From Ancylomarina euxina (lineage in GTDB: Bacteria > Bacteroidota > Bacteroidia > Bacteroidales > Marinifilaceae): a stretch of 64,000 nucleotides of DNA. A program made the position numbers and the translations under genes. The stretch's first letter is position 1; each line of letters starts with the position of its first letter. This document shows, one piece after another, positions 1-11,080 of the stretch. The stretch is taken from positions 310,001-374,000 of the forward strand of contig NZ_QQWG01000001.1 in assembly GCF_003863355.1 (NCBI RefSeq). Direction: 5' to 3'. Under the pieces are notes generated by a model, which ran no database searches, was not told the DNA's origin, and saw only the letters and a program-made list of their open reading frames with translations.

Positions 1-2133
1 ATTCTCATGGTTTTCCGTGGGCGCTACCTTTGGGGTGGCTTGTTGGCAACTTTCTTTCTGATATTGGAACTCTATTCCAATCACATTCAAATGACTTACT
101 ATTTTGCTATTATGGTTTTCTGTTTGGTGATATTCGAATTCTATCATCGACTGAAGGCTAAGGAAATGAAACATTTCTTTAAGGCGATAGGTGTTTTGTT
201 TGCTGCTTCCTTTATCGCTATTGGAGTGAATAACACTAACCTTTATAATTCATACGAGTACAGTAAATCGACCATTCGTGGCAAGTCCGAATTGACTATT
301 GGTGATAAAAACAATAAAACTGCTGGGCTCGATAAAGATTATGCGACCCAGTGGTCATATGGTATTCAGGAGACTTTGAGTTTGCTTATTCCTAATGTAA
401 AAGGGGGAGCAGGTTCGCCGCAAGAGGCTGTTCAAATTGTGAATTACGTGAGTGGTGGTCAGATTAAAAAAGTTGACGATTATTATAAAATGGAGCAGGT
501 CGATAACCATCACTATTGGGGGAATCAGCCTTTTACAGCCGGACCTGTTTATGTGGGTGCTTTGCTCATGTTTCTTTTCGTTTTAGGTCTATTTATCGTT
601 CCCGGACGATTGAAATGGGGCTTGCTTACGGCAACCATTTTGTCTATTATGCTATCGTGGGGACACCACTTTGCTGGCTTAACCAACTTCTTTTTGGATT
701 ATGTGCCGCTTTACAACAAATTTCGTGTGGTTTCTTCCATACTGATTGTGGTTGAGCTATGTGTCCCTTTATTGGCCATTCTTGCTGTTAAAAAAATTAT
801 TGAAGAACCCGAAGTTTTAAAACGTAAAATAGCTTTTGGTTCATTTAAACTGAATATTGGAATTATTCCTCTAGTCTTAACGGGTGGTTTGGCTTTACTC
901 TTATACCTACTGCCTAATTTAGGTTTGGATTTCATGAGTGATATTGAGAATAACTATCTGGCTCAAATTAAGTCGGCCAATCCAGATGCAATCGGGTTTA
1001 TTTCTCAAATACAGACCGATTTAATCGATGCACGGATCTCTATTTTCAGAGCAGATGCCTTGCGTTCGGTGGCATTTGTAGCTTTGGGAGCTGCTTTATT
1101 GTTCCTGTTCTTTCGTAAGATGATAAATTCCAAGTTGATGATTTTGGCTTTAATTATCTTAATTGTAGCAGATCTTTGGCCAGTGAACAAGCGTTACCTC
1201 AATAACGACAGTTTTGTAGCGAAGAAAGATTTGAAGTTGGCTTTTAATCCGACTCAAGCGGACTATGAGATTCTACAAATGGAATTGAAAAATCATCCAG
1301 AACTGAAAGCGACACTTCAAAAGGCTGCAGCCGATTATAAAAAAGAGAACCGAAAAGCCAATCAGTTTGAAACGATTGCCGCTCAACTTTGGAGCTTGAA
1401 TATGAATTCGAATTATCGTGTTTATAACACAACGGGTGGGGCTTTTCAAAATTCAAGTACTTCGTATTTCCACAAGTCAATTGGTGGATACCATGGTGCC
1501 AAACTAAGACGTATACAGGAACTTTACGATTTTCATATTGAGAAGAATAACCCTAAGGTTCTAAACATGCTGAATGCTCGTTATTCGATTGTTCGTACCG
1601 AGCAAGGTGGTACTCAGTCTGTTTATAATGCTGATGCATTAGGTTCGGCCTGGTTGGTTTCAAACTTTAAGTTGGTTGATAATCCTGATGAGGAAATTAT
1701 GAGCCTGAATGCTTTCAATCCTGCCAGAGAGTTAATTGTTGATAAACGTTATGCCGATCAGGTAAATGGTTTTGTCTGTAGCCCCGATAGTTTGTCTGTC
1801 ATTAAGATGACCCATTATGCGCCAAACGCTATTCAGTACGATTATCAATCAAAATCCGAGCAGTTGGCCGTTTTCTCTGAAATGTATTACCAACCCGGTT
1901 GGAATGCTTATGTCGATGGAGATTTAAAGCCACACTTTAGAGCCAATTATGTGTTGAGAGCGATGCGATTGCCAGCAGGTAAGCACAAAATAGAATTCAA
2001 ATTCGAACCCAAAGCATTTTATGTGGGTGAGAACATTTCTTTAGCCTCTATGATTCTCTTCTTTACCTTGGTATTGGGAGGCTTGGTTTGGACTCTAAAA
2101 TCAAATAGAAAAGCGACTAACGATGAGTCATAA
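1..2133 (+). CDS. YfhO-family membrane protein, 5' partial
   Basis: The reading frame is open to the left edge, so the ATG at position 7 is probably internal and the N-terminus lies outside the window. The visible 708+ residues hold many hydrophobic segments, a soluble region from about residue 390, a beta-rich stretch with MYYQPGWNAYVDG and a closing transmembrane helix; this layout is typical of the YfhO family (GT-C-like polytopic proteins). In Firmicutes, YfhO homologues help glycosylate lipoteichoic acid; Bacteroidota members are mostly uncharacterised. The gene overlaps the next one by 11 bp, so it is probably co-transcribed with a glycerophosphotransferase gene. A role in adding sugars to a surface polymer is inference from that context. 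Confidence 0.85.
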   Translation: MLMVFRGRYLWGGLLATFFLILELYSNHIQMTYYFAIMVFCLVIFEFYHRLKAKEMKHFFKAIGVLFAASFIAIGVNNTNLYNSYEYSKSTIRGKSELTIGDKNNKTAGLDKDYATQWSYGIQETLSLLIPNVKGGAGSPQEAVQIVNYVSGGQIKKVDDYYKMEQVDNHHYWGNQPFTAGPVYVGALLMFLFVLGLFIVPGRLKWGLLTATILSIMLSWGHHFAGLTNFFLDYVPLYNKFRVVSSILIVVELCVPLLAILAVKKIIEEPEVLKRKIAFGSFKLNIGIIPLVLTGGLALLLYLLPNLGLDFMSDIENNYLAQIKSANPDAIGFISQIQTDLIDARISIFRADALRSVAFVALGAALLFLFFRKMINSKLMILALIILIVADLWPVNKRYLNNDSFVAKKDLKLAFNPTQADYEILQMELKNHPELKATLQKAAADYKKENRKANQFETIAAQLWSLNMNSNYRVYNTTGGAFQNSSTSYFHKSIGGYHGAKLRRIQELYDFHIEKNNPKVLNMLNARYSIVRTEQGGTQSVYNADALGSAWLVSNFKLVDNPDEEIMSLNAFNPARELIVDKRYADQVNGFVCSPDSLSVIKMTHYAPNAIQYDYQSKSEQLAVFSEMYYQPGWNAYVDGDLKPHFRANYVLRAMRLPAGKHKIEFKFEPKAFYVGENISLASMILFFTLVLGGLVWTLKSNRKATNDES

Positions 2134-3346
2134 ACTCAGCAAAACAGAATGGTTCGTTAATTTTATGCAGAAAATTATTTTTCTGCATATGCTCATCTTT
2201 GTCCTTCGTAATTTCTACTATTTATTAGAGAAATTGGTGAGGAAGGATAAGCGAATTGCCTTGTTTTTTCTGACCGAGAAGTATTATTACGACAATTCGA
2301 AATATCTTTTTGAGTACATGCGCCAGAAGGACGATTTCAAATCCATCCTTTTTACAGCAAACAAAACGTTGTACGCTACCTTGCAAGATAAATTCCCTGG
2401 CGAGGTGGTTTATGCCTGGTCATTGAAAGGTTTATTCCTTTTTCTTCGAACACGAAATGTGATCATTTCATACGGGATTAGTGCAGCGCCATTTTTTCCT
2501 TATTATCTGCACGAGAAGTGCAAACATGTTATTTATTTAGGGCATGGTACACCCATGAAAAAGATGGGTTTGCAAACCGAAGTCTGGCAAAAGTATGGCA
2601 AGCGTTACCAGATGCAGAAATACAGCTATATGGCAGCTTGCTCACCACTGGAGCAAGTGATACATGGAGCAGGTTTTAATATCGATATGAACCATGTATG
2701 GGTGAGTGGTTTGCCACGTAACGATTATTTACTGTCTGCCTCGAAAGATGAGAAATTGACCGATAAGCACACTTATCTGAATCAAAAAGTGATTCTTTAT
2801 GCGCCTACCTGGCGTGAAGAAACACAATCGGCAGAGTTTTTCCCTTTTCAGGATTTTGACTCTGAGCAATTGGATGCTTTTCTTGAAAAAGAACAGGCTT
2901 ATATCCTTTTAAGAGGACATAAAGAAGATATCAAACGGGCTGATGAATTGAGCCATTTCGATGTTTCTAAAATGAAGCGTGTGATAAAGGCTGATCAGGA
3001 TCTGTTCCCTGATGTTTATGAGCTGTTGCCTTACGTCGATATTTTAGTGACTGACTATTCATCCATCTGGATTGATTATTTGTTGCTCGATAGGCCGATT
3101 GTTTATATTCCTTACGATTTGGAAGAGTATAAGAAAACGAAAGGTCTGTTTTTAGATTTTGAAAAGAATACGCCAGGCTATAAGGCGGCTAACTATAAAG
3201 AGTTTGAGAATCAAATCGAAACTTATTTGCAGAAGCCGCAGGAACATGCCGATTGGCGAAAGACGATACGTGATATGTATCACACACATCAGGATGGTGA
3301 AAGCAGTCGACGTGTTTATCAACTGATCAAAGAATTGAATCAATAA
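2123..3346 (+). CDS. CDP-glycerol glycerophosphotransferase-family protein (first copy)
   Basis: A 407-aa protein of the TagB/TagF-like glycerophosphotransferase family, which moves a glycerol-phosphate-type unit from a CDP carrier to an acceptor at the cytoplasmic membrane face. Seen: a hydrophobic N-terminal stretch (about 12-36) that could anchor it, GHGTPMKKMG (140-149), YAPTWRE (226-232), RGHKE (264-268) and the signature TDYSSIWIDYLLLDRP (310-325) followed by YDLEEY. These match the two-lobed GT-B fold with the catalytic HG motif. The start overlaps the YfhO-like gene by 11 bp. A second, divergent copy lies at 6672-7778. The donor may be CDP-glycerol or another CDP-alcohol; sequence alone does not decide. 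Confidence 0.88.
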   Translation: MSHKLSKTEWFVNFMQKIIFLHMLIFVLRNFYYLLEKLVRKDKRIALFFLTEKYYYDNSKYLFEYMRQKDDFKSILFTANKTLYATLQDKFPGEVVYAWSLKGLFLFLRTRNVIISYGISAAPFFPYYLHEKCKHVIYLGHGTPMKKMGLQTEVWQKYGKRYQMQKYSYMAACSPLEQVIHGAGFNIDMNHVWVSGLPRNDYLLSASKDEKLTDKHTYLNQKVILYAPTWREETQSAEFFPFQDFDSEQLDAFLEKEQAYILLRGHKEDIKRADELSHFDVSKMKRVIKADQDLFPDVYELLPYVDILVTDYSSIWIDYLLLDRPIVYIPYDLEEYKKTKGLFLDFEKNTPGYKAANYKEFENQIETYLQKPQEHADWRKTIRDMYHTHQDGESSRRVYQLIKELNQ

Positions 3347-3379
3347 CATGAAGCCCGAGGGTTTTATTAAAAATCGAAT

Positions 3380-5188
3380 ATGCAAGCAATAATTCTAGCT
3401 GCTGGACTTGGGAAACGATTGGGAAATCTGACTCAAAACAACACCAAATGTATGGTTGAAATCCATGGTAAAACGCTAATTGAGCGCTCCCTGGATAATC
3501 TATCCGAAGCTGGAATCAGCAGAGTGATTTTGGTTATTGGTTATGAGGGTCAAAAGGTGATTGATCTATTGGGGAATAGCTACGCCAATATGGAATTGGT
3601 ATATGTTGAAAACCCAATTTATAATAAAACCAATAATATTTATTCGCTCTATCTGGCAAAGGATTATCTGACGGATAGAGATACGATTCTATTGGAAAGT
3701 GATTTGATTTACGATGCGGAGATTTTAAACAAATTGATTGCTGCTGATGCCCCAAATTTGGCAGTTGTAGCCAAGTACGAATCGTGGATGGATGGCACCG
3801 TTGTTACGCTTGATGAGAATAACAACATCCTGAATTTTATTCCCAAAACACATTTCGATTATCAGCAGCTGCATAATTATTACAAGACAGTTAATATCTA
3901 TAAATTATCTAAGGATTTTTCCAGTTCACATTACGTCCCATTTCTTGAGGCTTATTGCAAGGCATTGGGTCATAACGAGTATTACGAGCAGGTACTGCGT
4001 GTGATCACTCTTTTGGAAAATTCCGATTTGAAAGCCTATAAAATCGATACCGAAAAGTGGTACGAGATTGATGATATACAGGATTACAATAATGCCGAAA
4101 CGGTTTTTGCACCAGCATCAGAGAAACTAAAAATGATTCAAGCACGTTATGGTGGTTATTGGCGTTTTCCTTACCTAAAAGATTTCTGTTATTTGGTAAA
4201 CCCTTACTTTCCGGGCATAAAGATGGAAAATGAGATTAAGGCTTATTTTCATGCCTTAATGAGCGAATACCCATCTGGCTTGAATGTTCAAAATCTCTTG
4301 GCAGCTCGTATGTTCGATTGCCCACAAGATCAGATAGTGGTTGGGAATGGTGCTGCCGAATTAATCAACGCTTTAAGCTCGGTACTGAAAGGGAAAGTAG
4401 GTATTATCAACCCTAGTTTTAACGAATATGCTGAGCGATTCGAAGCTTTAGGCCTTGAGACCTTTGTTCCGGGAAATGAGCATTTTTCATATTCACTTTC
4501 AGACTTAAAGTCCTTTTCTCAATCCGTAGAGCAGCTTCTCTTAATCAATCCTGATAACCCAAGCGGGCACTTTATCCCGGTTAATGAAGTTCTTGAATTA
4601 GCTCAATTCTTAGCTGATGCCAATAAGAAACTCATATTGGATGAATCTTTTATCGATTTTTCAAGCGAAGGCCCTAAAAATACATTGATCAAGGAAGAGG
4701 TGCTGATGGCTTATCCTAACTTGATTATCATTAAGAGTATCAGTAAAAGTTACGGTGTGCCTGGTTTTAGATTAGGTGTGTTGACTTGCTCCGATTTGAA
4801 CTTGATGAAAAAAGTGAAAAGTAAAATCTCTATTTGGAATGTGAATTCCTTTGGGGAATTTTTCATGCAGATTTTCGAGAAGTATAGAAAAGACTATTTT
4901 AAAGCTTGTAATACCATATCTACAGAAAGAGATCGATTTTATACTCTTCTAAACAATATTGAATACCTGAGAGTGATTCCTTCGCAGGCTAATTATTTTT
5001 TATGCGAGCTTGTAAATGGTCAATCATCGAGTGAACTGACCGAGAAGTTATTAGTCGAACACGATTTATTTATAAAAGATCTTAAAGGAAAAAAGGGTTT
5101 CGAGAATAAAGAATACATTCGCATCGCGGTTAGAGATGGAAAGGACAATGATTTCATTGTTGATATCTTAAAAAATAGAGTATGGTAA
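3380..5188 (+). CDS. Fused LicC/PntC-like nucleotidyltransferase and class I/II PLP-dependent aminotransferase/decarboxylase
   Basis: A 602-aa two-domain enzyme. Residues 1-240 form a sugar-phosphate/choline-phosphate nucleotidyltransferase domain: LAAGLGKRL (6-14) with Lys23 in the substrate loop, YNKTNNIYSL (81-90), and acidic ESD (106-108) and DD (231-232) as likely metal ligands. Residues 255-602 form a fold-type I PLP domain like HisC or CobD: NPDNPSG (390-396), DES (421-423), SISKSYG with Lys456 as the likely Schiff-base lysine, and Arg464 in PGFRLG. Known relatives of the parts include LicC (CDP-choline), PntC (CMP-aminoethylphosphonate) and CobD (threonine-phosphate decarboxylase). 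A fusion that makes and then CDP-activates a phospho-amino-alcohol is plausible but unproven. The stop overlaps the next gene by 7 bp. Confidence 0.8.
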   Translation: MQAIILAAGLGKRLGNLTQNNTKCMVEIHGKTLIERSLDNLSEAGISRVILVIGYEGQKVIDLLGNSYANMELVYVENPIYNKTNNIYSLYLAKDYLTDRDTILLESDLIYDAEILNKLIAADAPNLAVVAKYESWMDGTVVTLDENNNILNFIPKTHFDYQQLHNYYKTVNIYKLSKDFSSSHYVPFLEAYCKALGHNEYYEQVLRVITLLENSDLKAYKIDTEKWYEIDDIQDYNNAETVFAPASEKLKMIQARYGGYWRFPYLKDFCYLVNPYFPGIKMENEIKAYFHALMSEYPSGLNVQNLLAARMFDCPQDQIVVGNGAAELINALSSVLKGKVGIINPSFNEYAERFEALGLETFVPGNEHFSYSLSDLKSFSQSVEQLLLINPDNPSGHFIPVNEVLELAQFLADANKKLILDESFIDFSSEGPKNTLIKEEVLMAYPNLIIIKSISKSYGVPGFRLGVLTCSDLNLMKKVKSKISIWNVNSFGEFFMQIFEKYRKDYFKACNTISTERDRFYTLLNNIEYLRVIPSQANYFLCELVNGQSSSELTEKLLVEHDLFIKDLKGKKGFENKEYIRIAVRDGKDNDFIVDILKNRVW

Positions 5189-6303
5189 TTGGCATTTGTG
5201 GGGGAGGAAATATTGCGCATAGCTTAATTGGTTTGTTGGGATCGGATTCTTCGAATGAAATTCGATTGTTGACAAGGAAACCCAATGAGTGGCAGAAGCA
5301 AATTTGTGTTATCAACAGGGAAGGTGAGGATCTTATTGGGAAACTGGATTTTGTTTCTGATGATGCCTCTCAAATTATATCCAAATGTGAATTGATTATT
5401 TTAGCTCTTCCATCTCAAGCCAGAGAAAGCGTCATTAAGCAAATTGCTCCTTTTGTAGCCAAAAATACCTGGATAGGCTCATTCCCTGGTATGGGAAATT
5501 TTGAGTTAATTTGCCATAAACACCTGCCTTTAAGCGAGAAAAATATTCGGATTTTTGCTAGTCAAAGAGTCCCTTGCATTGCGCGTGTTTCAAAATATGG
5601 CGAAGAGGTTGTGATGACTTCGAAAAAGGATAGCATGGCAGTGGCGACTCTCAATCCAAATTTGATAGAAGAGATATCGACTTTGCTATCTCCTTTATTT
5701 GATATGCAGATTTTGCCTTTGAATAATTTCTTAGAGGTTACTCTCTCTACATCGAATCCCATATTGCACCCAGCCCGTATGTATGCCCTTTTTAAGGATA
5801 TAAAAGCTGATGAAGTTTGGGGTGAGAATCCTACTTTTTACGAATCTTGGAATTTAGAATCTTCTGAAATCCTGATCAAAATGGATGAAGAGGTGCATAC
5901 CTTATTGGATAAAATTCCATTCGACCTGAGTGGTATCAAACCTTTATTGGAACATTACGATTCTGCTAACGCTGAGGAGTTGACACAAAAGTTAAGTAGT
6001 ATTCAAGCGTTCAAGGGCCTTTTATCTCCCATGAAAAAGATGGATAAGGGTTTTGTTATTGATTTGGAGTCTCGATATTTTATTGAAGATATTAGCTTTG
6101 GGTTGATTTTAATAAAAGATATTGCGCACCTATTTTCAATAAATACACCGACTATTGATCAGGTCATTTATTGGGCTCAGGATCTTTTGAATAAGGACTA
6201 CCTGCTTGCTGGGAAATTGGAAGGGGTAGATTGTGTAGACCTTTTATTACACCCTTCGTTTTCGATAAGCAGTCCCGAGGAATTTCTTAATTTTTATCAA
6301 TAG
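5182..6303 (+). CDS. NAD(P)-dependent octopine/nopaline dehydrogenase-family protein
   Basis: A 373-aa protein with an N-terminal Rossmann fold (IGICGGGN, residues 3-10; LIILALPSQA 71-80) and a C-terminal helical domain containing SNPILHPARM (191-200). The N-x-x-x-H-P pattern, with His196 as the presumed catalytic base, is characteristic of octopine/opine dehydrogenases, which reductively condense an amino compound with an alpha-keto acid. The start codon lies inside the preceding fusion gene (7-bp overlap), so the two are translationally coupled and probably act in sequence. Its amine substrate may be what the fusion protein makes; this is inference. It is clearly not glycerol-3-phosphate dehydrogenase or ketopantoate reductase by the NPILHP motif, though the Rossmann half is shared with them. 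Confidence 0.8.
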   Translation: MVIGICGGGNIAHSLIGLLGSDSSNEIRLLTRKPNEWQKQICVINREGEDLIGKLDFVSDDASQIISKCELIILALPSQARESVIKQIAPFVAKNTWIGSFPGMGNFELICHKHLPLSEKNIRIFASQRVPCIARVSKYGEEVVMTSKKDSMAVATLNPNLIEEISTLLSPLFDMQILPLNNFLEVTLSTSNPILHPARMYALFKDIKADEVWGENPTFYESWNLESSEILIKMDEEVHTLLDKIPFDLSGIKPLLEHYDSANAEELTQKLSSIQAFKGLLSPMKKMDKGFVIDLESRYFIEDISFGLILIKDIAHLFSINTPTIDQVIYWAQDLLNKDYLLAGKLEGVDCVDLLLHPSFSISSPEEFLNFYQ

Positions 6304-6671
6304 CATCCTAAATGTTTTTATTCATGTTATTTATTTTGCTGCTATCAATACATTTAAGACTATAACGGAATAAAGGGGTTATTTTTTGACCACCTCAAAA
6401 GCTGGCCTCTTTTTTAAAGATTTTTCGTTTTACGAAAGCTTTAGAAAGACCGGGAAGCTGAGAACTTGTTCGAAGATCACCCGGCCGCACTTAAGCTTGA
6501 GGCATATAAGAAAGATGTTTAAAAAGCAGCCTTGATCTTTTTTGCTTCGTTTTTTGGATCAAGCCAAAAAAATGAAGTCTAGTTTATTCGAAAAGCTCAT
6601 GATCTCGCAAAAAGCTCGGTTGGGGCGAAGCACCAATTTATTAAGACAGGATTGAAATTTTATCAATAATC
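6304..6671 (+). other. 368-bp gap between opine-dehydrogenase-like and second glycerophosphotransferase genes
   Basis: The gap holds no intact gene. It contains a short gene-tail-like frame (6445-6522, listed separately) and then, in the same frame after the stop, a low-complexity stretch reading LIFFASFFGSSQKNE, similar to spurious peptides I have seen in many Bacteroidota intergenic regions. An inverted repeat CTTGATC (6531-6537) / GATCAAG (6557-6563) brackets that T-rich part and could form a weak hairpin. The mixture looks like debris from a rearrangement rather than a regulatory leader. No convincing TAnnTTTG promoter was found here. Confidence 0.5.
6445..6522 (+). pseudogene. Possible remnant of a gene 3' end
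   Basis: A frame preceded by a stop (6442) and ended by TAA (6520-6522) reads about 25 plausible residues including NLFEDHPAALKLEAYKK. The stretch is visibly richer in G and C (CCCGGCCGCAC) than the flanking genes. Similar phrases occur near the C-termini of sulfatase-like proteins, but the piece is far too short to assign. It may be the surviving tail of a gene lost when the locus was rearranged, or a chance open stretch. Confidence 0.25.
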
Positions 6672-7778
6672 ATGAGAAAAAAGAAACTACTGTTTATCGA
6701 CTACATCCACTCAAGTGTTCGTGACCTGATGGTCTATTACGATAAGAATCTTCGTGATGAATTTGAAGATAAAGTCGACATTGAAATCTATAAGAAGCCT
6801 TATCAAAAGAACCGCTCTTCAATTCTTGGGATTCTAGCTCGCAAATGGTATTTGCTTAAGAAGATTAGAAAACCAGATTTGGTTGTAGGTGACACCTACA
6901 CACATGCTATTTTCAAAGCGGGAAAGAAAAGCATGTATATTTTTCATGGAGCTTTAACCAAACAGCATCCTGCCAAGAATCACAATGCCCTGACTGAAAG
7001 AGGAGGGGATCTTCGCAAAATGGATTATGTGGTGGGTTTCTCAAAACGTGATCAGGAAAATTACATGCTTGATAAAGACGGAAAACCCAATGGGAATTTT
7101 GAATTGCTTCCTCTTGGTTTACCCAGGAACGATCAATTATTTTCAGCCGATTATAAGAAAGAAAGTCGGGCTTACTATGATGGGAAGTATAATTTAGAAG
7201 GGAAACGAATTCTGCTATATGCGCCTACATTCCGTAACTATTCCGAAGAAATCAAACTGCCTTTTTCGGCTTCTGATTTTGACAGATTAAACGAATTCTT
7301 TAAAAAGAATAATTGGGTGATGATTTATCGTCCTCATTATATTGAAAATATTATTCCCAGGGAATACCTGGAATCGAAAGAGAGCATCTTAATTTTGGAT
7401 TCAATAATAGAAGAGGATAGTCAGAAATTGCTTGCTGCTACCGATGTTTTGATGACAGATTACAGCTCTATTTATGTAGATTACCTAATTCTCGACCGAC
7501 CAATTTGTTTTTTGCCTTTTGATTTAGATCTTTACGATCAAGAAAAAGGGCTTGTGATTGATTTTAAGGATGAGGCTTGTATTCCAGGTCCAATTATTGG
7601 TCATGCAGATGAACTATTGACTTTCTTTAATGATGTCAATCATTCAAAAGACAATTTTGTTGAGAGACGTGCTTCGTCGAAAGCTTATTATTTTGATTAT
7701 TTCGATAATAAGAGTTGTAAACGCGTTTGGGAAGCCATTCTTTACGATATTTTGGACTTAAAAAGGAAGTGGTCATAG
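6672..7778 (+). CDS. CDP-glycerol glycerophosphotransferase-family protein (second copy)
   Basis: A 368-aa enzyme of the same family as 2123-3346 but without the N-terminal hydrophobic anchor and with low overall similarity to it. Seen: FHG (91-93, catalytic-lobe histidine), LPLGLPRND (146-154), YAPTFR (183-188), RPH (220-222) and TDYSSIYVDYLILDRP (262-277) followed by FDLDLY. The HGTPxKKxG motif is altered to HGALTKQHP, which suggests a different acceptor or donor. It sits 33 bp before tagD, the gene for a CDP-glycerol-forming enzyme, so this copy is the better candidate for true CDP-glycerol use. With two transferases one may prime and the other extend, or each may handle a different CDP-linked unit; both ideas are inference. 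Confidence 0.87.
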   Translation: MRKKKLLFIDYIHSSVRDLMVYYDKNLRDEFEDKVDIEIYKKPYQKNRSSILGILARKWYLLKKIRKPDLVVGDTYTHAIFKAGKKSMYIFHGALTKQHPAKNHNALTERGGDLRKMDYVVGFSKRDQENYMLDKDGKPNGNFELLPLGLPRNDQLFSADYKKESRAYYDGKYNLEGKRILLYAPTFRNYSEEIKLPFSASDFDRLNEFFKKNNWVMIYRPHYIENIIPREYLESKESILILDSIIEEDSQKLLAATDVLMTDYSSIYVDYLILDRPICFLPFDLDLYDQEKGLVIDFKDEACIPGPIIGHADELLTFFNDVNHSKDNFVERRASSKAYYFDYFDNKSCKRVWEAILYDILDLKRKWS

Positions 7779-7811
7779 AGATTTTAAAAATATAAAAAAA
7801 TATATATTAGA

Positions 7812-8201
7812 ATGAGAAGAGTTATAACTTTCGGAACATACGATCTATTTCATATTGGACATTTGCGCATTTTAGAGCGCTCTAAGCAGAATGGTGATTA
7901 CTTAATTGTGGGTATTTCAACAGATGCACTGAATTACTCTAAGAAGCAGAAGAATCCTATTTATAGCCAGGAAGACAGAATGGATATTATTAAGGCTCTT
8001 AAGGTTGTTGATGAGGTCTTCTACGAAGAATCATTGGAGCTTAAGGGTGAGTATATCAAAGAACACAAGGCTGATGTCTTAGTGATGGGGGACGATTGGG
8101 CTGGTCGTTTCGATATGTTTAAAGAATTATGCGAAGTGGTTTACTTGCCACGCACCCCATCTGTATCTACAACAGAAATTATCGAGATTATTAAAAGATA
8201 A
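7812..8201 (+). CDS. tagD: Glycerol-3-phosphate cytidylyltransferase (TagD-like)
   Basis: A 129-aa protein of the length expected for TagD, which makes CDP-glycerol from CTP and sn-glycerol-3-phosphate. The nucleotidyltransferase signature HIGH is at residues 14-17 in GTYDLFHIGHLRIL, GDDW at 93-96, and the C-terminal RTPSVSTTEI (114-123) matches the RTxGISTT motif of this family. The enzyme is typical of Gram-positive wall teichoic acid synthesis and less common in Gram-negative bacteria, where it serves capsules or O-antigens with glycerol phosphate. It follows the second glycerophosphotransferase by 33 bp and nearly abuts the convergent flippase gene (one base between stop codons). Confidence 0.93.
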   Translation: MRRVITFGTYDLFHIGHLRILERSKQNGDYLIVGISTDALNYSKKQKNPIYSQEDRMDIIKALKVVDEVFYEESLELKGEYIKEHKADVLVMGDDWAGRFDMFKELCEVVYLPRTPSVSTTEIIEIIKR

Positions 8202-8202
8202 C

Positions 8203-9672
8203 TTATCGTTTGATGAGTTTCAAGGCTGAATCATTAAGATCTTTCGAGATACGAAAGCTTAATGTTAAAGCGATATAGATTAGACTTACAATTGCTCCCC
8301 GAATAATGATATCTATGACATAAGAATCTTGCTTGGGGAGCAAATAAGAGATGTAATACGAAACAACAGCGATTATAATAACTAATAAGTAACGGTAGTT
8401 AAAAGGTTGGAATTTATATCGTTTCAGTAAAAAAATATACTTCATCAGATTAAAACACAAGCTAGCTGCAAATGATGCCGCAGCAGCCCCAGTAACTCCC
8501 CAAAGGGGTATCATGATCGCATTACTAATAATGATTATCCCTGCATACAATATTAAGAAAAGAGATTGCTTGCGATAAGCAGGTGAATTCTGAATCACCA
8601 CCCCACTGATACCCGACAGCATTAAGACCACATTAGACAAACCAATGAAGAAAACTACATATTTTCCTTCAATATATTCTGGTGTGACTATCTGAAGGAC
8701 ATTATCAATATTGACCCACAAGCCAACAAAAAGCAGACAAGCTACCATGAACTGGTGCAATCCACTTTGTGCGTAAGTTTTTGATATGGTTTTAAGATCT
8801 TTCTTCTTCCAGGCTTCGGCTATTACAGTACTTGATATTTTGTTTAAGGTGCGTGAGGGCATAGATATTAAAACTCCAAAACTTGCCATAACTGTAAATA
8901 TCCCCGTAGCTCCTAAACTCAACATCCCTGTAAGCATAAGCTTGTCAATTTGGGATGCTATTTTATCACCGAAATTATTTAGAAGCCCATATAATGAGGT
9001 GTCAATCATGATCTTTTTCAGATCTGGTTTGATAAAGTTCAGCTTAGGTTTAAATGAAACTTGCTTGCGGGTAATCAATACACCGAAAAGTAATACGGTT
9101 GGTAAACAATAGGCCGAAACGTAAATAAAAACCAACTGATCGAAGTTGATAAAATCTTTCCAGAGTAAAATTAAGCTGACTGAAACGATTATTCTAAAAA
9201 TAATATCTCTGAAGAAGGTACCTGAAATAGCATCGTATAAAACTCGGTTGTAACTATCGAATAGATTATAGAAAATAGAGAAAAAAACGAGAGGAATTAG
9301 GTAAATAAGATAGTTGAGATTAAAAGCTTCATCTCCACTGAAATAGTTACCAGCAAAGGGGTGTAAAGAAGCGTAGGCCACTAGAGAGATTACAAATCCT
9401 AATAATCCAACACAAAAAAGAATAAACATGAAACCGTTGTGTTGATTCTCCTCATTTCGAAAATAGGGAAATAATCTTGAGATAACAGCACCGAAACCTA
9501 GGCCCGAGAATTGGGCAGCCAGCATGGTTGTGGCAATTAACCAGGATAACAAACCGACTTCTTCGGTAGAAAGAATGCGAGGGTATAAAAGGGCGACATT
9601 TGCAAGTCCTATTATGGCCCCTACATATGAAAATATTGACCCTATAATGGTTTGTTTTCGGATAATACCCAA
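8203..9672 (-). CDS. Wzx/MOP-type polysaccharide flippase
   Basis: A 489-aa polytopic membrane protein of the MOP superfamily (polysaccharide biosynthesis branch). The N-terminus IIRKQTIIGSIFSYVGAIIGLANVALLYPRIL is the usual start of Bacteroidota Wzx-like flippases, and about 12-14 hydrophobic segments are spread over the length with short basic loops. The family moves lipid-linked oligosaccharides across the inner membrane. The gene is convergent with tagD. A -7 element on this strand (TACTTTTG, 9705-9712) lies about 35 bp before the start. Whether it exports the polymer made by the neighbouring genes is inference; such flippases also occur alone. Confidence 0.85.
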   Translation of the reverse strand: MGIIRKQTIIGSIFSYVGAIIGLANVALLYPRILSTEEVGLLSWLIATTMLAAQFSGLGFGAVISRLFPYFRNEENQHNGFMFILFCVGLLGFVISLVAYASLHPFAGNYFSGDEAFNLNYLIYLIPLVFFSIFYNLFDSYNRVLYDAISGTFFRDIIFRIIVSVSLILLWKDFINFDQLVFIYVSAYCLPTVLLFGVLITRKQVSFKPKLNFIKPDLKKIMIDTSLYGLLNNFGDKIASQIDKLMLTGMLSLGATGIFTVMASFGVLISMPSRTLNKISSTVIAEAWKKKDLKTISKTYAQSGLHQFMVACLLFVGLWVNIDNVLQIVTPEYIEGKYVVFFIGLSNVVLMLSGISGVVIQNSPAYRKQSLFLILYAGIIIISNAIMIPLWGVTGAAAASFAASLCFNLMKYIFLLKRYKFQPFNYRYLLVIIIAVVSYYISYLLPKQDSYVIDIIIRGAIVSLIYIALTLSFRISKDLNDSALKLIKR

Positions 9673-9704
9673 GCTGTTTCTTTTTAGTGTGAAGTCTGAT
9701 TAAT

Positions 9705-9712
9705 CAAAAGTA
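9705..9712 (-). promoter_or_regulatory. Putative -7 element for the flippase gene
   Basis: TACTTTTG on the minus strand fits the Bacteroidota TAnnTTTG element, about 35 bp upstream of the start at 9672. No clear TTTG -33 partner is visible, so confidence is limited. Confidence 0.4.
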
Positions 9713-9918
9713 ATAAAACTAAAGGAAAGTATGCGCAGGTCAGCATCTCATCTATTATGAATTAGTGAAATCTATGTTTACTTAGCTTTCAGTGCACTTA
9801 GATCTGTTAGTATGTGAAAATAGTGAATAAATTACTCTGAATCTAAAGGCCTATTTCTGATTAAAAATTGTATTTTCGCATGTTGCCATAAATTTACATT
9901 CATAATAAAATTAGTCGC

Positions 9919-10791
9919 ATGGCTCAAAGTAATAAAGCTTCTAAACGTCGTTTAAGAACTTCATATTTTAGCTCGATAATTAGTATTTCATTGGTCCTGT
10001 TTATGTTGGGACTTATGGGTTTGCTGGTTCTGAATGCTAAGCAGTTATCTAATTACGTGAAAGAGAATATAGGTATTTCAGTTGTATTAAAAGATAACGT
10101 TAAAGAGGTTGATATTCGTCGTTTGCAGAAAATTCTTGATGCTAGTTCTTTTGTAAAATCAACCAAGTTTATTGATAAGGAAACTGCAGCTAAGGATTTA
10201 CAGAAAGATTTGGGAGAGGATTTTATTTCATTTTTAGGTTATAATCCATTATTGGCAACCATTGATGTAAAATTGTATGCTGATTATGCCAATCCAGAGA
10301 GTATTGCTAAAATCGAGAAAAACTTATCGAAATATGATGCAATTCAAGAGATTTATTATCAAAAATCCCTTGTGCATTTGGTCAATGAGAATGTGAAAAA
10401 GATTAGTTTAATACTGCTTGCATTCAGTGGATTACTTTTTTTGATATCGGTGACACTAATTAATAATACGATTCGTTTGTCTATTTATTCGCACCGAATG
10501 CTCATTAAAACCATGCAATTGGTTGGTGCTACCCGAGGCTTTATCCGTCGACCATTTATTGGGAAAAGTTTTTGGCACGGCATTTTGGGAGCCATCATTG
10601 CAAACTTACTTTTAAGTGGTGTGATTTATTTATCTCAAAGAGAATTGCGAGAGGTTATTACATTTGAAAATGTAGAAATATTGGGTTTATTATTTATTCT
10701 AATCACTCTGATTGGTATTGTGATAACTTGGATTTCAACCTTTTTAGCAGTGAACAAATTTTTAAGAATTGATACAAGACATTTGTATTAG
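9919..10791 (+). CDS. ftsX: Cell division permease FtsX
   Basis: A 290-aa protein with the FtsX layout: a cytoplasmic basic N-terminus, a first membrane segment (about 18-42), a periplasmic domain of about 110 residues with the ISVVLKD start, then three membrane segments in the C-terminal half. FtsX pairs with the ATPase FtsE to control peptidoglycan hydrolases at the septum. ftsE is not adjacent, as is usual in Bacteroidota. The gene starts a conserved run ftsX-DUF3098-uppP-truB-queA that links division, carrier-lipid recycling and tRNA modification. A possible -7 element (TATTTTCG, 9871-9878) lies 41 bp upstream. Confidence 0.93.
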   Translation: MAQSNKASKRRLRTSYFSSIISISLVLFMLGLMGLLVLNAKQLSNYVKENIGISVVLKDNVKEVDIRRLQKILDASSFVKSTKFIDKETAAKDLQKDLGEDFISFLGYNPLLATIDVKLYADYANPESIAKIEKNLSKYDAIQEIYYQKSLVHLVNENVKKISLILLAFSGLLFLISVTLINNTIRLSIYSHRMLIKTMQLVGATRGFIRRPFIGKSFWHGILGAIIANLLLSGVIYLSQRELREVITFENVEILGLLFILITLIGIVITWISTFLAVNKFLRIDTRHLY

Positions 10792-10837
10792 AAGCTTGGC
10801 TAGATACGTTTAAACAAGATTAAACTCTTTATTTTAT

Positions 10838-11080
10838 ATGAACAAGGACGATAAAAAACTTGAATTTGCTTTGGCAAAAGAAAACTACAAGCTTCTGCTT
10901 ATTGGTTTCGCTATAATTATTATTGGTTTTATGCTGATGATGGGTGGGGGATCAGAGGATCCAACCGTTTTTGATGAAGACATTTTCAGCTTTCGCAGAA
11001 TTACTCTGGCGCCTTTGGTTGTTCTTTTTGGATTTGCTTTCGAAATATATGCCATTATGAAGCGTCCAAAAGAAAAGTAG
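10838..11080 (+). CDS. DUF3098 small membrane protein
   Basis: An 80-aa protein with two hydrophobic helices (about residues 17-36 and 55-73) separated by a short loop containing GGGSEDPTVFDEDIFSFRR, the hallmark of DUF3098. Function is unknown. It lies 46 bp after ftsX and before uppP, a position conserved across Bacteroidota, which suggests a link to the envelope or division machinery. Both termini are predicted to be cytoplasmic. Confidence 0.88.
   Translation: MNKDDKKLEFALAKENYKLLLIGFAIIIIGFMLMMGGGSEDPTVFDEDIFSFRRITLAPLVVLFGFAFEIYAIMKRPKEK

Follow-up and report, generated by a model that had tools for sequence, protein, structure and literature searches.

Octopine-type opine dehydrogenases give products of R configuration by family habit. 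A review lists N-[(R)-1-carboxyethyl]ethanolamine phosphate as a polysaccharide substituent in its glossary and in a legend that treats Proteus mirabilis O-polysaccharides and Klebsiella pneumoniae capsules jointly (PMC9630907). One route to the parent amine is represented by Cj1436, which decarboxylates serine phosphate to ethanolamine phosphate in a capsule pathway (PMC12409886). Among the matches listed in the open-access literature (titles and abstract openings), none presented biosynthetic genes for this substituent, none described a cytidylyltransferase fused to a pyridoxal phosphate (PLP) domain together with an opine gene, and none joined these parts into a pathway. Here we describe such a combination in 64,000 nt of Ancylomarina euxina DNA (the window, meaning the whole stretch analysed; labels such as L010 and G293 denote compared loci and genomes), where a cassette on the + strand (3345–7791) encodes a bifunctional fusion protein, a putative opine dehydrogenase, and a phosphotransferase. 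Sequence comparisons lead us to propose, with moderate confidence, that these genes produce an activated phospho-opine and use it for a surface polymer.

Gene Order and Cassette Exchange within the Genus

Five genes lie on the + strand within positions 2123–8201 of the window (open reading frame coordinates). The first encodes a member of the cytidine diphosphate (CDP)-glycerol-type glycerophosphotransferase family (GPT1; 2123–3346; PF04464, 224 bits, E 3e-66) and is followed by the fusion of a cytidylyltransferase and a PLP domain (3380–5188; NTP_transf_3, E 3e-14; Aminotran_1_2, E 5e-30), a putative opine synthase of the octopine dehydrogenase family (5182–6303; PF02317 (Octopine_DH), 110.1 bits against a cut-off of 30, E 1e-31), a second PF04464 transferase (GPT2; 6672–7778; Glyphos_transf, 154 bits, E 8e-45), and a TagD-like glycerol-3-phosphate cytidylyltransferase predicted to form CDP-glycerol (7812–8201; PF01467 (CTP_transf_like), 87 bits, E 2e-24). 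The last scores 136.4 bits with the glycerol-3-phosphate cytidylyltransferase model TIGR01518, under its cut-off of 165.4. The start of the opine gene overlaps the end of the fusion by 7 bp, and GPT1 overlaps the preceding YfhO-type gene by 11 bp. Coordinates and Pfam matches thus confirm a preliminary description of this DNA, which had reported five genes on one strand with a 7-bp overlap between the fusion and opine genes. The same gene order is found in two further Ancylomarina genomes (L010 and L011; 79–95% protein identity), indicating that the arrangement did not arise by chance.

The fusion is present in three of five genomes of the genus, and in the two without it (L134 and L135) window positions 3345–7791 give way to one other PF04464 gene (assigned by Pfam in one of the two) that is 26–28% identical to GPT1 and GPT2 and may add ordinary glycerol phosphate. 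The exchange is clean at the nucleotide level: by blastn, positions 1–3344 (80.7%) and 7792–10793 (81.1%) of the window align to L134 with nothing between them, and positions 1–3344 (again 80.7%) and 7812–10919 align to L135. The YfhO-type gene, GPT1, TagD, and the flippase-type gene are retained in both genomes, with identities of 86% in L134 and 87% in L135 for GPT1 (the latter relative to the best GPT1-type reference), 93–94% for the TagD-like protein, and 80–85% for the flippase-type protein. Since GPT1 and TagD are kept where the cassette is missing, both belong to a core, and GPT2 belongs with the fusion and the opine gene; its absence together with the cassette suggests that GPT2 is the phosphotransferase that would use the new CDP donor. 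The solved relatives of GPT2 by sequence are TarL (8va1), Cps3D (8qoy), and TagF (3l7j), and the best score of the PF04464 transferases with the TarF, TarL, and TarB equivalog models is 111.3 bits, where 550 is the cut-off. The preliminary description had one of the two transferases placing a CDP-activated, opine-modified phospho-amine on a glycan; the sequence comparisons support this pathway and refine it in two respects: it is GPT2 rather than GPT1 that accompanies the module, and the opine gene occupies a slot whose content is exchanged.

The Bifunctional Fusion

The N-terminal part of the fusion (about residues 1–245) matches in sequence the CTP:phosphocholine cytidylyltransferase LicC (1jyk) and, from Tde1415, the PntC domain (6pd1). 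The alignment with LicC (63.2 bits, best stretch residues 2–103) ends before the pocket residue, and that with Tde-PntC (55.8 bits) runs through a stretch common to both proteins, LLESDLIYD, which contains PntC E104 and places E106 of the fusion opposite it. In PntC, E104 lies near the primary amine of 2-aminoethylphosphonate (AEP), and LicC has an aspartate (D105) at this place (PMC6697681). The fusion lacks this choline-type pocket, having glutamate at the PntC E104 position, which favors a primary amine over choline as the substrate of the N-terminal domain. E106 and D108 are invariant, as is K456 of the C-terminal part, in all 28 rows of an alignment of the window with 27 of the 80 fusion loci compared, these being the closest of at least 585.

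The C-terminal part (about residues 250–602) is a CobD/SMUL_1544-type PLP decarboxylase-like domain of family PF00155; the class V transaminase domain is not the one present. Judged by the motif, K456 is presumably the PLP lysine. Among solved structures, the SMUL_1544 decarboxylase (6oux), a phosphoserine enzyme, is closest in sequence (145 bits, compared with 90 bits for CobD). The preliminary description had given the PLP domain a role beyond histidine synthesis, and this holds: a histidine-synthesis role was rejected in view of a separate HisC gene in the A. euxina genome (355.9 bits, over the cut-off).

The Opine Gene

Octopine dehydrogenase is the best solved relative of the opine protein (3c7a, E 2e-34; profile E 1.6e-60). 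The predicted structure (predicted local distance difference test score, pLDDT, 94.7) matches octopine dehydrogenase 3iqd with a Z score of 41.1 (root-mean-square deviation, rmsd, 2.9; 364 residues aligned) and CENDH with a Z score of 38.0 (rmsd 2.2; 336 aligned). Residues H196, R298, and D303 are invariant in all 32 rows from fusion loci, the window included, and align to H212, R324, and D329 of octopine dehydrogenase, which we take to be its catalytic residues. We propose that the enzyme N-carboxyalkylates the ethanolamine nitrogen.

Relatives of this gene were also found in other surroundings. Two Burkholderiaceae plasmids (L118 and L119) carry two octopine-dehydrogenase-family genes near a methyltransferase and a gene of the phytanoyl-CoA dioxygenase family, a different opine cluster. 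A link to Proteus genomes was rejected: in one P. mirabilis record the opine gene (25% identical) has cysteine-synthase-like, transporter-like, and receptor-like genes for neighbors, as judged by eye from their translations, and so does not look related.

Linkage of the Fusion to an Exchangeable Slot

Neighboring genes were counted by tblastn within 4 kb of the fusion in all 80 loci. An octopine-type gene alone is present in 37 loci, a PF02423 mu-crystallin/ornithine-cyclodeaminase-type gene alone in 23, both in 1, and neither in 19, so that the totals near the fusion are 38/80 and 24/80, respectively; an earlier count within three genes, which covered 78 of the 80 loci (35, 21, 1, and 21 in the same order), is superseded. 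The PF02423 identity was confirmed on two members and that of LicD on one, the remainder being assigned by similarity. The two reductase types rarely occur together (1/80; Fisher p 1e-7, a test that ignores relatedness), and most lie on the same strand no more than 150 bp downstream of the fusion (31 of the 38 octopine-type and 22 of the 24 mu-crystallin-type genes). A LicD phosphotransferase is encoded in the stretch of 49 of the 80 loci.

In a sample of 295 genomes of the order, 10 have a full-length fusion, 1 more has a broken fusion, and 7 others have the PLP part only. Opine relatives at E 1e-15 or better were detected in 12 of the 295 genomes, and the six with strong matches (E 1e-59 or better) are all among the 11 fusion genomes (p 5e-10 for 6/6 strong genomes, 4e-7 for 6/12; relatedness is ignored in both, and the line between strong and weak matches was drawn after the gap was seen). 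The strong opine gene adjoins the fusion in four of these six, the broken fusion included, and two more of the 11 fusion genomes have a mu-crystallin-type gene. Seven of 56 genomes in a family sample encode the full-length fusion, five of them with an opine gene (two of these are perhaps L010 and L011 again), one with a mu-crystallin-type gene, and one with neither in the 1.5 kb examined. The module is rare in a phylum sample of 395 genomes, A. euxina itself counted: two had the fusion at E 1e-80 or better, and one had the opine gene at E 1e-30 or better. The expectation of the preliminary description that the two genes would be conserved together is therefore borne out, both by the octopine-type gene near the fusion in 38 of 80 loci and by the presence of the fusion in all six strong genomes of the order.

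Pairs of closely related loci show that the gene beside the fusion has been exchanged. L052 and L068 share 88–91% identity upstream of and through the fusion, apart from ∼1.5 kb present in L052 only, and 78% farther downstream; at the slot itself, where one has an octopine-type and the other a mu-crystallin-type gene, their DNA cannot be aligned. L063 and L049 differ by a similar exchange. The types also differ between L027 and L033, but there the two genes sit on opposite sides of the fusion, the octopine-type downstream and the mu-crystallin-type upstream. On a FastTree phylogeny of 79 fusions (a quick method, with 16 of 76 inner branches weakly supported and one long-branch warning), the octopine/mu-crystallin label requires at least 16 changes over 60 labeled rows, compared with a mean of 18.7 (14–23) in 200 shuffles, suggesting that the slot neighbor is close to random with respect to the descent of the fusion. 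The simplest reading is that the two unrelated enzymes are alternative forms of one job on the fusion product, and we infer that they would give opposite stereochemistry. Extended further, the loci could represent a general system by which bacteria decorate their surfaces with phospho-opines, comprising a CDP-ethanolamine synthase (the decarboxylase–cytidylyltransferase fusion), an exchangeable N-tailoring slot, and an exchangeable phosphotransferase, in which the swap of R- and S-forming reductases would amount to chirality-based antigenic variation in gut Bacteroidales, an idea that we advance tentatively and consider short of probable. As speculative is the proposed complement of parts in such a system, with octopine-dehydrogenase-type enzymes, mu-crystallin-type reductases, and methyltransferases as possible slot fillers and LicD, PF04464, and phosphatidyltransferase proteins as possible phosphotransferases.

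Unusual copies of the module were also recorded. L099 (G266:C2:189000-203000) appears to be a decaying copy, with its fusion broken across two frames and two stops in the match to the adjacent opine gene, and L130 (G734:C92:90000-104500) has a full fusion, an opine gene, and LicD beside two weak partial fusion matches (28% identity). Four viral contigs from IMG/VR (L113, L114, L115, and L116; 22–322 kb) encode a full-length fusion relative (46–51% identity), and the stretches around it gave no opine match; in L113, LicD-like and methyltransferase-like genes adjoin it, as judged by eye. Among phage records, five have partial PLP-type matches, none of which spans 80% of the fusion.

Proposed Pathway and Alternatives

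The phospho-opine pathway draws on gene content, predicted folds, retained active-site residues, conserved linkage, the exchangeable slot, and the clean cassette swap within the genus; from these we infer its substrates, the order of activation and condensation, the keto acid, the stereochemistry, and the acceptor. We predict that the PLP domain decarboxylates O-phospho-L-serine to phosphoethanolamine and that the N-terminal domain couples this to cytidine triphosphate (CTP), giving CDP-ethanolamine. The octopine-dehydrogenase-type enzyme would then join the amine by reductive condensation to a keto acid (pyruvate in the simplest case) to yield CDP-N-(1-carboxyethyl)ethanolamine, predicted to be the R form. 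Condensation after rather than before CDP activation is the more likely order because the pocket around E106 would suit a small amine. GPT2 would finally transfer the phospho-opine to a glycerol-phosphate-containing surface polymer, the core of which would involve GPT1, TagD, and the YfhO-type protein. The group so transferred would match N-[(R)-1-carboxyethyl]ethanolamine phosphate, presumably a Proteus component, as the preliminary description had also placed it. The substituent itself, given in that description as N-(1-carboxyethyl)ethanolamine phosphate, does appear in print (PMC9630907).

Several observations weigh against this pathway and are considered here with the alternatives that they bear on. 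The top NCBIfam model for the C-terminal part of the fusion is that of the threonine-phosphate decarboxylase CobD (TIGR01140, 161.7 bits, cut-off 290.55), followed here by the HisC model TIGR01141 (122.6 bits, cut-off 276.55); as both scores fall under their cut-offs, the domain is neither CobD nor HisC by the NCBI standard. The predicted fusion structure (pLDDT 92.5) has its best match in CobD 1lkc (Z 38.5, rmsd 2.2, 336 aligned), and the matches to 3ftb, a Clostridium protein labeled HisC (Z 38.1, rmsd 2.2, 328 aligned), SMUL_1544 (Z 36.7, rmsd 2.7, 354 aligned), and HisC 8bj1 (Z 36.1, rmsd 2.5, 328 aligned) are so close, with the CobD, SMUL_1544, and HisC structures within about 2.5 Z of one another, that the fold alone cannot choose and leaves room for a phosphothreonine substrate or for transamination. 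With the CobD specificity, the fusion would make CDP-aminopropanol from phosphothreonine, and the opine enzyme would modify this compound, giving a product with one extra methyl group. We consider this unlikely given that SMUL_1544, a phosphoserine enzyme, is the better relative by sequence, that a further CobD-like protein is encoded elsewhere in the A. euxina genome (262.2 bits, under the 290.55 cut-off), and that the published substituent derives from ethanolamine (PMC9630907).

A second group of observations concerns the association of the opine gene with the fusion. The 80 loci, being the closest, are not a random sample, and 19 of them have neither opine-type gene: 9 of these have LicD, 3 a methyltransferase (identified by Pfam on two loci and by weak NCBIfam matches on the third), 1 a phosphoenolpyruvate (PEP) mutase, and 6 none of these, some of the 19 ending at contig ends. 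In the order sample, neither reductase type lies beside the fusion in 5 of the 11 fusion genomes, 4 of which have LicD; the strong opine gene is unlinked to the fusion in two of six genomes (G293 and G194); and none of the six genomes with weaker opine matches (E 1e-25 to 1e-38) has a full-length fusion. The opine relatives on the Burkholderiaceae plasmids (36–37% identical) have no listed fusion nearby, in a gene table that is incomplete. These patterns could mean that phosphoethanolamine is added unmodified or differently modified and that the opine enzyme is a mere neighbor acting on another small molecule. Tight adjacency to the fusion for both reductase types, the reading-frame overlap in the window, and the repeated exchange at the slot argue for a joint function instead, and we give the mere-neighbor explanation a low probability.

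For the phospho-opine pathway the acceptor is taken to be a glycan; it could instead be a membrane lipid, receiving the opine as a phospholipid headgroup. In L012 and L013 a CDP-alcohol phosphatidyltransferase comes directly behind an opine gene and a fusion, a set that could yield such a phospholipid. A lipid with the same headgroup reportedly occurs in rumen protozoa, and it was not among the matches listed in the open-access literature. Split forms in Bacteroidales, with adjacent cytidylyltransferase and PLP genes followed by a CDP-alcohol phosphatidyltransferase (identified by Pfam on one), are likewise linked to lipid-type transferases, but no opine gene was found there; they were seen in the order sample (L102–L107, all six loci read, of seven such genomes) and in the family sample (L131 and L132, both loci read, of three such genomes). 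These split sets are perhaps a CDP-ethanolamine route to phospholipid, and their make-up, as expected of a lipid route from phosphoserine through CDP-ethanolamine, supports the ethanolamine assignment. With PF04464 transferases and a flippase-type gene flanking the fusion and opine genes in the window, and LicD in 49 of 80 stretches, a lipid acceptor appears very improbable here.

A phosphonate pathway, in which the fusion would act on AEP as PntC-AEPT with its PLP domain as the transaminase, is suggested by the resemblance of the N-terminal domain to Tde-PntC with its shared LLESDLIYD stretch and by a PEP mutase beside the fusion in L016 and L031, and can be dismissed as highly unlikely for A. 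euxina, whose genome (99.99% complete) gave no PEP mutase match where 11 of 14 control genomes did (9 over the cut-off), whose PLP domain is PF00155 and not class V, and whose relatives have PEP mutase near the fusion in only 2 of 80 loci. In those two loci the phosphonate reading may still apply, as some close relatives may take phosphonates (AEP).

Flanking Genes and a Dispersed Repeat

The core genes are bounded on the left by a gene for a YfhO-family membrane protein (7–2133, + strand; PF09586, 38.1 bits, cut-off 28.5), the start of which precedes the window, and on the right by a gene for a flippase-type polysaccharide export protein on the − strand (8203–9672; PF01943, 59 bits). Between the opine gene and GPT2 lies a dispersed repeat (6310–6660, strand not assigned) with eight more matched pieces in the same genome (72–92% identity), two of which are neighbors. 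It is missing from L010 and L011; the repeat entered the cassette in the window strain. About 7 kb upstream of the window, three genes stand in a row on the − strand (L110:7137-11347), two of them for an AMP-binding ligase and an MBOAT acyltransferase and one that matches nothing in Pfam, an arrangement reminiscent of a Dlt-type D-alanylation set.

Comparison with Known Systems

Each enzyme family in the cassette is known, and their combination would constitute a CDP-activated surface decoration of new make-up. It provides a gene-level hypothesis for the making of N-carboxyethyl ethanolamine phosphate, named for enterobacterial surface polysaccharides (PMC9630907), and would give opine dehydrogenases a part in the surface polymer chemistry of gut and marine bacteria. 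The swap of two unrelated reductases at one slot offers a testable sign of surface diversification, and GPT2 is singled out of the two transferases as the candidate user of the new donor.

The Tde1415 PntC-AEPT of the Lic/Pnt pathways likewise combines N-terminal CTP activation of a phospho- or phosphono-amine with a PLP fusion and surface tailoring (PMC6697681). The window fusion differs in having a CobD-like PF00155 PLP domain and an opine-type gene next to it, with no PEP mutase found in the genome. SMUL_1544 (6oux), whose substrate is phosphoserine, shares with it the PLP fold and the proposed reaction, as does Cj1436 (PMC12409886). In the window, however, the PLP domain is fused to a cytidylyltransferase; for Cj1436, the product ends up in amide linkage to glucuronic acid (PMC12409886). 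The opine enzyme has sequence, fold, and the aligned residues H212, R324, and D329 in common with octopine dehydrogenase and CENDH (PF02317; 3c7a and 1bg6); its proposed amine is phosphoethanolamine or CDP-phosphoethanolamine, in contrast to the amino acid used by octopine dehydrogenase, and its setting is surface polymer synthesis. Polymers bearing N-[(R)-1-carboxyethyl]ethanolamine phosphate have the same predicted product chemistry in another organism and on another acceptor. The teichoic acid proteins TagD, TarF, TarL, and TarB share PF04464 and CTP_transf_like domains with the window, where the proteins score under the NCBIfam equivalog cut-offs, the host is Gram-negative, and one transferase travels with the putative phospho-opine genes.

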